Notes under the pieces: generated by a model | Databases searched by the model: none | Told to the model about the DNA's origin: nothing | The model's input: only the letters and a program-made list of their open reading frames with translations | DNA from: Candidatus Rokuibacteriota bacterium | GTDB taxonomy: Bacteria > Methylomirabilota > Methylomirabilia > Rokubacteriales > CSP1-6 | Reading direction: 5' to 3' | NCBI GenBank assembly: GCA_003221695.1 | Contig: QHSX01000051.1 | Location: 1 to 64,000 of the forward strand | DNA: 64,000 nt | Position numbers and translations under genes: made by a program | Shown here: one piece after another, positions 21,941-28,344 of the stretch | Position numbering within the stretch: position 1 is the stretch's first letter | How the letters are laid out: every line of letters begins with the position of its first letter

Positions 21941-22037
21941 GGGACGAATCTACGGCAACCGACCGCTCGGGCGCCAGAGCCTCGTGCGCGATGGGCGGCG
22001 GGTTCGTGTAGAGTTCGCAGACGGAGGAGGGACGCCC

Positions 22038-22505
22038 ATGGGTGAGCTGATTCACGTCTCGAGGGTCCGGATCGTCAAGGACAAGGGCCCGCTGCGCCGC
22101 GCGTGGATCGAGAACTTTCCCGACCCGGTCGTCTACGGCGTGCACGGCGGCATCAAGAAGTTCTACGGCGTCGAGCCGGAACAGGAGGCGCCGGCGACGC
22201 TCGACCACCTCGTGGCCGCCGTCGGCGGCTGAATGACGGGCACGCTAGCCGGGGCGCTAGCGGCGCGGAAGATCCCCACCCAGCCCGACCGGCTCAGCGC
22301 CGAGGTCGAGGGGTTCATCGAGAACGTCGAGGGCAAGCCGCTCGTCACGCGGATCAAGGTCCGCTACACGGTCAGGGTCCCGAAGGGCAAGCGGCCGGAC
22401 GCGCTGCGGGCCATCGAGGTCCACGAGAAGGGCTGCCCGGCGTCGCAGTCGGTCCAGCGCGGCATCGCCGTCGAGTGGGAGGGCGACGTCCGCGAGGATG
22501 ACTAG
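22038..22505 (+). CDS. OsmC-like protein with in-frame UGA (probable selenocysteine)
   Basis: One 155-residue frame interrupted by TGA at 22230-22232 (residue 65). Upstream, ATLDHLVAAVGG ends where OsmC/Ohr proteins carry the first catalytic cysteine (…A-G-C-x3-L); downstream, MTGTLAGALAARK continues the same helix and GCPASQSV supplies the second catalytic cysteine. The total length equals a normal OsmC (about 140 residues). A hairpin suited to a bacterial SECIS follows the TGA. OsmC proteins reduce organic hydroperoxides, and Sec would raise reactivity. The ATG at 22038 has GGAGGAGGG 7 bases before it. The ordinary alternative is a pseudogene or two fused-by-chance halves; conservation on both sides of the TGA argues against that. 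Confidence 0.8.
22230..22262 (+). promoter_or_regulatory. bSECIS-like hairpin in the OsmC-like gene
   Basis: After TGA (22230-22232), CGCTAGC (22243-22249) pairs with GCTAGCG (22256-22262) around the loop CGGGGC. Seventeen nucleotides separate the UGA from the apical loop, and the second loop base is G. Known bacterial SECIS elements have the loop about 16-37 nt after the UGA with a G in the first two loop positions. Confidence 0.7.
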
Positions 22506-27360: not shown

Positions 27361-28344
27361 ATGCAGATCGGGATGGTCGGCCTGGGGCGGATGGGCGGGA
27401 ACATGGCGCGGCGGCTCCTGCGGGGCGGCCACGAGGTCGTCGCCTACGCGACCGATGCGACCGCCGTCCGCCAGCTCGCGGGCGAGGGCGCGGTCGGGGC
27501 GCTGACGCTCGACGACTTCGTGGCCAGGCTCAAGCCGCCGCGCGTGGCATGGGTGATGGTGCCGGCGGGTCCGCCGACCGAGCAGGTCGTGACGGACCTC
27601 GCCCGCCGCCTGGATCCCGGTGACACGCTCATCGACGGCGGCAACTCCTACTTCAAGGACGACGTGCGCCGGAGCCGGACGCTCCGCGAGCGACGGATCA
27701 ACTTCGTGGACGTCGGCACGAGCGGCGGCGTCTGGGGGCTCGAGCGCGGGTACTGTCTGATGATCGGCGGCGACCGGGCGGTCGTGGCCCGCCTCGATCC
27801 GATCTTCCGGACGCTCGCGCCCGGGGTAGACACCGTCCCGGGCACGCCCGGGCGCGAGAGGTCCGGGTCCCCCGCGGAGCACGGCTACCTCTATTGCGGG
27901 CCGTCGGGTGCCGGCCACTTCGTCAAGATGGTCCACAACGGGATCGAGTACGGGCTGATGCAGGCGTACGCGGAGGGGCTCGACATCATGAAGAACGCGA
28001 ACTCGAAGGACCTGCCGGAGGAGCTCAGGTACGACCTCGACCTCGCGGACATTGCCGAGCTGTGGCGTCGCGGCTCCGTCGTCAGCTCCTGGCTCCTGGA
28101 CCTCACGGCGCAGGCGCTCGCCGAGAACCCGACCCTCTCCGCCTACACGGGCGTCGTCGCGGACTCCGGCGAGGGGCGCTGGACGATCATGGCGGCACTC
28201 GAGGAGGCCGTGCCCTGCGACGTTCTCGCCGCCTCCCTCTCCGCGCGCTTCCGCTCGCGCCAGGAGCACACCTTCGCGGAGAGGGTGCTCTCGGCGATGC
28301 GCCACAAGTTCGGCGGCCACGTCGAGCAGCCGACGGGCGGTTGA
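27361..28344 (+). CDS. gnd: 6-phosphogluconate dehydrogenase (decarboxylating), short form
   Basis: A 327-residue enzyme of the short GndA type. It starts [19 protein letters not shown], with GxGxxG for NAD(P). The substrate and catalytic blocks are [32 protein letters not shown], and [19 protein letters not shown] with the catalytic lysine. It oxidatively decarboxylates 6-phosphogluconate to ribulose-5-phosphate, the substrate of the rpiA product three genes upstream. No zwf is seen in the window. Confidence 0.93.

Follow-up and report, generated by a model that had tools for sequence, protein, structure and literature searches.

The OsmC-family gene at positions 22038–22505 (+ strand) of the window, the 64,000-nt stretch of DNA analysed here, almost certainly encodes a genuine selenoprotein, with selenocysteine (Sec) predicted at residue 65 in the place of the peroxidatic cysteine. 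Dozens of bacteria in several phyla share this TGA arrangement, and we therefore regard it as a real and under-annotated branch of the family. That branch is probably a separate, second Sec-OsmC subfamily, near-obligately Sec (104 Sec forms to 6 Cys forms) and distributed across several phyla. Its SECIS would have shifted among three registers with the protein unchanged, and its Cys forms would be secondary, having arisen through loss of Sec, decay of the SECIS and often loss of the Sec machinery.

Standard annotation would truncate the genes of this subfamily at the UGA or start them past it, so that most Methylomirabilota, Acidobacteriota and Desulfobacterota gene tables probably lack an enzyme family that is widespread. 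With one protein, three SECIS positions and two independent changes to Cys, the subfamily also constitutes a natural experiment on SECIS evolution, and it allows a direct test of the rules that govern spacing in SelB decoding and of the order in which SECIS decay and Sec-to-Cys change take place.

Layout of the OsmC gene

The frame opens with an ATG at 22038, immediately preceded by the ribosome-binding-site-like sequence GGAGGAGGG (22023–22031, + strand; found by inspection), and closes with a TAG at 22503–22505. Read through the in-frame TGA at 22230–22232 (codon 65), it specifies 155 residues, and orthologues share both its length and its start. The read-through product matches the Pfam OsmC profile PF02566 over residues 49–148 with 47.4 bits (gathering score 27.5), and the match spans the TGA. 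In a phmmer alignment with the Thermus OsmC protein 1ukk, residue 65 pairs with a cysteine, and the cysteine of the GCP motif pairs with Cys133 (codon 22434–22436, + strand), the predicted resolving cysteine, which is invariant in an alignment of 30 sequences spanning 45–85% identity. The central claim of the preliminary description, that a TGA splits an OsmC frame at the peroxidatic cysteine, is thus borne out by the coordinates and by the Pfam match across the TGA, and the OsmC/Ohr alignment that it proposed as a check places residue 65 on the conserved Cys, both in 1ukk and among the relatives described below.

The gene stands alone in the window, with a divergent DinB_2 gene on one side and a minus-strand ORF on the other. 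Searches for a sigma-70 promoter, a terminator and a plasmid homologue found none, and an Rfam scan of the gene region returned chance matches only. A window-wide scan for further in-frame Sec-UGA codons yielded a single other candidate, at 28342–28344, which was rejected as the ordinary stop between genes for 6-phosphogluconate dehydrogenase (6PGD) and fructose-1,6-bisphosphatase; the long open frame on both sides of that TGA reflects two genes that share a frame.

Selenocysteine machinery of the source genome

The source genome, that of a Rokubacteria-type soil bacterium of the Methylomirabilota (4.6 Mb in 109 contigs, completeness 100), contains all four components for which the preliminary description had suggested a search, selA, selB, selC and selD. 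Its tRNA-Sec scores 69.8 bits, over the cut-off, and is called by ARAGORN as tRNA-SeC with anticodon tca; selA (588.6 bits) and selB (373.3 bits) share its contig and lie less than 5 kb away. SelA, SelB, SelD and tRNA-Sec, the set expected where bacterial selenoproteins are made, are present together. The selD gene, on another contig (337.1 bits), has one internal TGA in the context YATCAG-U-ASKMAP, at what we take to be the catalytic Cys/Sec position of SelD. It appears to be a selenoprotein gene itself.

Codon 65 and the downstream frame in relatives

Matches at E ≤ 1e-8 were found in 61 of 148 related genomes, and every one of them contains a TGA. Across 110 fetched loci, a set that counts some genomes twice with one copy per collection, codon 65 is TGA in 104, TGC in 6 and any other codon in none, so that the in-frame UGA aligns with Cys in homologues as it does in 1ukk. 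The named relatives include Rokubacteria, NC10/Methylomirabilota, Acidobacteriota, delta-type groups (Thermodesulfobacteriota and records labelled Deltaproteobacteria), Actinomycetota and single representatives of others. Invariant columns in the 30-sequence alignment comprise, besides Cys133, position 65 itself (Sec or Cys), T54, D56 and a few Gly and Tyr residues.

For the stretch 3′ of the UGA, comparison of the window gene with 30 relatives (identity 69% or higher) gave a median dN of 0.130 and a median dS of 0.669, which argues that this stretch is translated and constrained; judged by these rates, the frame downstream of the TGA is under purifying selection. Comparative sequence evidence strongly supports the predicted insertion of Sec at residue 65.

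The gene is accompanied by selA in most hosts, selA being found in 52 of the 61 genomes that carry a TGA gene. The other 9 gave no selA match at the threshold used; most of these are incomplete, several being incomplete MAGs, but three of the 9 are rated 95–100% complete. No neighbourhood partner consistent across phyla was found for the OsmC gene; the largest neighbourhood clusters overlie the gene itself, as shadow frames or parts of it, and the others are limited to a few loci.

The SECIS hairpin

The predicted SECIS of the window gene (22243–22262, + strand), in the register designated r45, begins 10 nt past the UGA and consists of a 7-bp stem, CGCUAGC (22243–22249) paired with GCUAGCG (22256–22262), and the loop CGGGGC (22250–22255). 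The spacing from UGA to loop is 17 nt, and the folding energy is −19.5 kcal/mol over a 46-nt stretch. These values lie within the published bSECIS bounds, namely a loop of 3–9 nt with a G in its first two bases, a stem of 4–16 bp, a distance of 16–37 nt from the UGA and an MFE ≤ −7.5 (PMC13188914). The preliminary description was right about the 7-bp stem and its position and about a SECIS-like hairpin, which proved to be present and conserved among relatives. The weight that it placed on the fold of this single sequence was not upheld: compared with dinucleotide shuffles z is −2.1, with 8 of 200 shuffles folding as well, and compared with synonymous recodings p is 0.16. We accordingly rejected the hairpin as stand-alone proof, being marginal in GC-rich sequence.

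What makes the hairpin convincing is its retention across relatives, its use of rare codons and its compensatory changes. The stem contains two CUA codons, whereas six neighbouring genes use CUA for only 2 of their roughly 405 Leu codons; at both sites CUA is kept in 18–19 of 30 relatives, and the others mostly have CUG, which retains a G-U pair. The mean stem score of 95 distinct TGA genes is 18.3 and that of their synonymous recodings 10.9; for the 6 Cys genes the two values are 12.0 and 12.3. Paired cells exceed 97% in each of the three registers. In r60, a conserved Ala codon (GCG, GCC or GCA) varies at its third base in step with the second base of an Ala/Gly/Val codon, the two agreeing in 30 of 30 genes; shuffles, which ignore relatedness, average 11.4, and none of 20000 does as well. 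In r49, the C or T that begins a Leu codon tracks a G or A of a Gly/Lys codon farther downstream in 35 of 39 genes, versus 22.4 when shuffled, relatedness again being ignored. A predicted SECIS hairpin thus follows the UGA, is maintained across relatives with compensatory changes and is degraded in the Cys forms.

Two ways of dispensing with Sec were weighed against this evidence. A pseudogene or sequencing error, in which a nonsense mutation struck the Cys codon, might be entertained for a MAG-type assembly in which TGC-to-TGA is a single step and the hairpin taken alone is marginal. It is refuted by recurrence in independent genomes, the same TGA being shared by over 100 loci in several phyla, and it is at odds with purifying selection downstream of the TGA, with a covarying SECIS and with a full Sec machinery in the genome; we give it almost no credence. 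Hardly more plausible is that the UGA is read without Sec, either by generic reassignment or read-through (e.g. as Trp or Gly) or by termination to give a 64-aa peptide. The frame would be open either way, but the nearby 6PGD gene ends normally in its TGA at 28342–28344, Cys is the only sense alternative at codon 65, the SECIS is conserved in TGA genes only, and SelB and tRNA-Sec are present. Under the Sec reading, the hairpin, with its loop 17 nt past the UGA, would recruit SelB with Sec-tRNA(Sec), and selenocysteine would be placed at residue 65.

SECIS registers and Sec-to-Cys changes

Every TGA gene of the tree that could be assigned unambiguously fits one of three registers, with the loop about 17 nt (27 genes), 19 nt (38 genes) or 26 nt (31 genes) past the UGA. 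At least five register changes are needed on a quick tree, a count that is provisional because of the nature of the tree and its long branches. Three genes could be assigned to either of two registers, and they may show how a switch of register occurs.

Cys forms occupy two places in the tree, both nested among Sec forms, corresponding to two changes. Their hosts are five Terriglobia genomes and one Syntrophaceae genome. No selA match was obtained in four of the five Terriglobia genomes and a partial-length match in the remaining one; the Syntrophaceae genome has selA. Overall, selA was detected in 16 of 18 sampled Sec genomes versus 2 of 6 Cys genomes (Fisher p 0.018). The five Terriglobia Cys forms carry mismatched remnants of the r60 hairpin. 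They also adjoin a gene that resembles sulfite/nitrite reductases by eye, no profile search having been made.

Predicted fold and chemistry

An AlphaFold2 model of the protein (pLDDT 96.2) adopts the OsmC fold, and its best-scoring PDB matches, headed by 1ukk (E 4.8e-9), are proteins of the OsmC and Ohr types. Together with the domain score, the resemblance of the model to OsmC/Ohr structures places the protein in the OsmC superfamily (PF02566). Sec65 would sit in the long helix that bears the peroxidatic cysteine of OsmC/Ohr proteins, and the mature selenoprotein would probably be a homodimer, as in OsmC/Ohr. By analogy with these enzymes, we propose that the Sec65 selenolate would attack a hydroperoxide or other electrophilic substrate, that Cys133 would resolve it as a selenenylsulfide, and that a dithiol would then reduce the enzyme; both the peroxidase substrate and the reductant are what we infer from the family.

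The protein shares with the Ohr/OsmC peroxiredoxins (TIGR03561, TIGR03562; PDB 1ukk, 1qwi, 1zb9, 6eb4) its fold and two redox residues at equivalent places. It differs from them in having Sec for Cys, in reaching no family cut-off and in lacking a recognisable Ohr Arg. Of the Arg-Glu-Cys-Cys network of Ohr, residue 65, Cys133 and D56 are invariant in the 30-sequence alignment, and a search of that alignment for the catalytic Arg found no invariant Arg, which makes peroxidase activity less certain than Sec insertion. Family membership, the sole basis for assigning a function, on balance favours Sec-dependent thiol peroxidase chemistry of the OsmC/Ohr type.

Ohr activity is unproven for many OsmC/YhfA-type proteins that await characterisation, and it is possible, if rather unlikely, that this Sec-OsmC is not a peroxidase and handles persulfides or other sulfur or selenium electrophiles. 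Such a role would accord with scores far below the cut-offs for membership of TIGR03562 OsmC (23.2 vs 85.8 bits) and TIGR03561 Ohr (13.2 vs 88.85 bits), with the absence of an invariant Arg, with the sulfite/nitrite-reductase-like neighbour of the Terriglobia Cys forms (seen by inspection only) and with the lack of a conserved neighbour that would define a substrate. Against it, the redox positions U65 and C133 are kept, the acidic D56 lies about where the catalytic Glu sits, and the closest solved structures are those of OsmC and Ohr.

Relationship to known Sec-OsmC proteins

OsmC-like selenoproteins (COG1765/PF02566, motif UxxT) have been reported since 2005, from the Sargasso Sea and GOS and in later surveys (PMC1088965, PMC2398784, PMC9312934, PMC13188914), with counts of 3 Sec and 10 Cys forms in the Sargasso set and 5 Sec and 161 Cys forms in GOS (PMC1088965, PMC2398784). 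The preliminary description was right that Sec-OsmC proteins are known from metagenome surveys (PMC1088965, PMC2398784); the window protein, with its UMTG motif, is of another type than the published one. Like the Sargasso/GOS proteins, it combines an OsmC domain and Sec replacing the catalytic Cys with a bacterial SECIS directly downstream. Unlike them, it reads U-M-T-G-T (UxxG, not UxxT) and belongs to a subfamily in which Sec dominates.

A similar relationship holds with NCBIfam NF041052 (OsmC_like_Se, OsmC-related (seleno)protein), members of which have the OsmC fold with Sec at the homologous place. In related genomes, including Rokubacteria-type ones, these members read SAALAF-U-LMT and hence conform to UxxT. 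The window protein scores 26.5 bits against this model, whose cut-off is 95, and falls in a separate clade on very long branches. Low score and U-M-T-G motif together argue that it represents a predicted Sec-OsmC subfamily that is distinct from the UxxT/NF041052 type. In the main texts of freely accessible papers we found no description of this subfamily or of Rokubacteria selenoproteins, except that one review mentions 63 predicted selenoprotein genes in a MAG of the Methylomirabilota; the subfamily may already be listed elsewhere.

Two further Sec-OsmC arrangements were observed among the relatives. A diverged paralogue group of nine loci, with about 40–44% identity, has a U-M-Y-G motif, a TGA and an r60-type hairpin; it belongs to the same bacterial family and is found in relatives that include one of the same genus as the source. 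In three genomes, a member of the window subfamily and an NF041052-type Sec-OsmC lie about 1–2 kb apart on the same contig.
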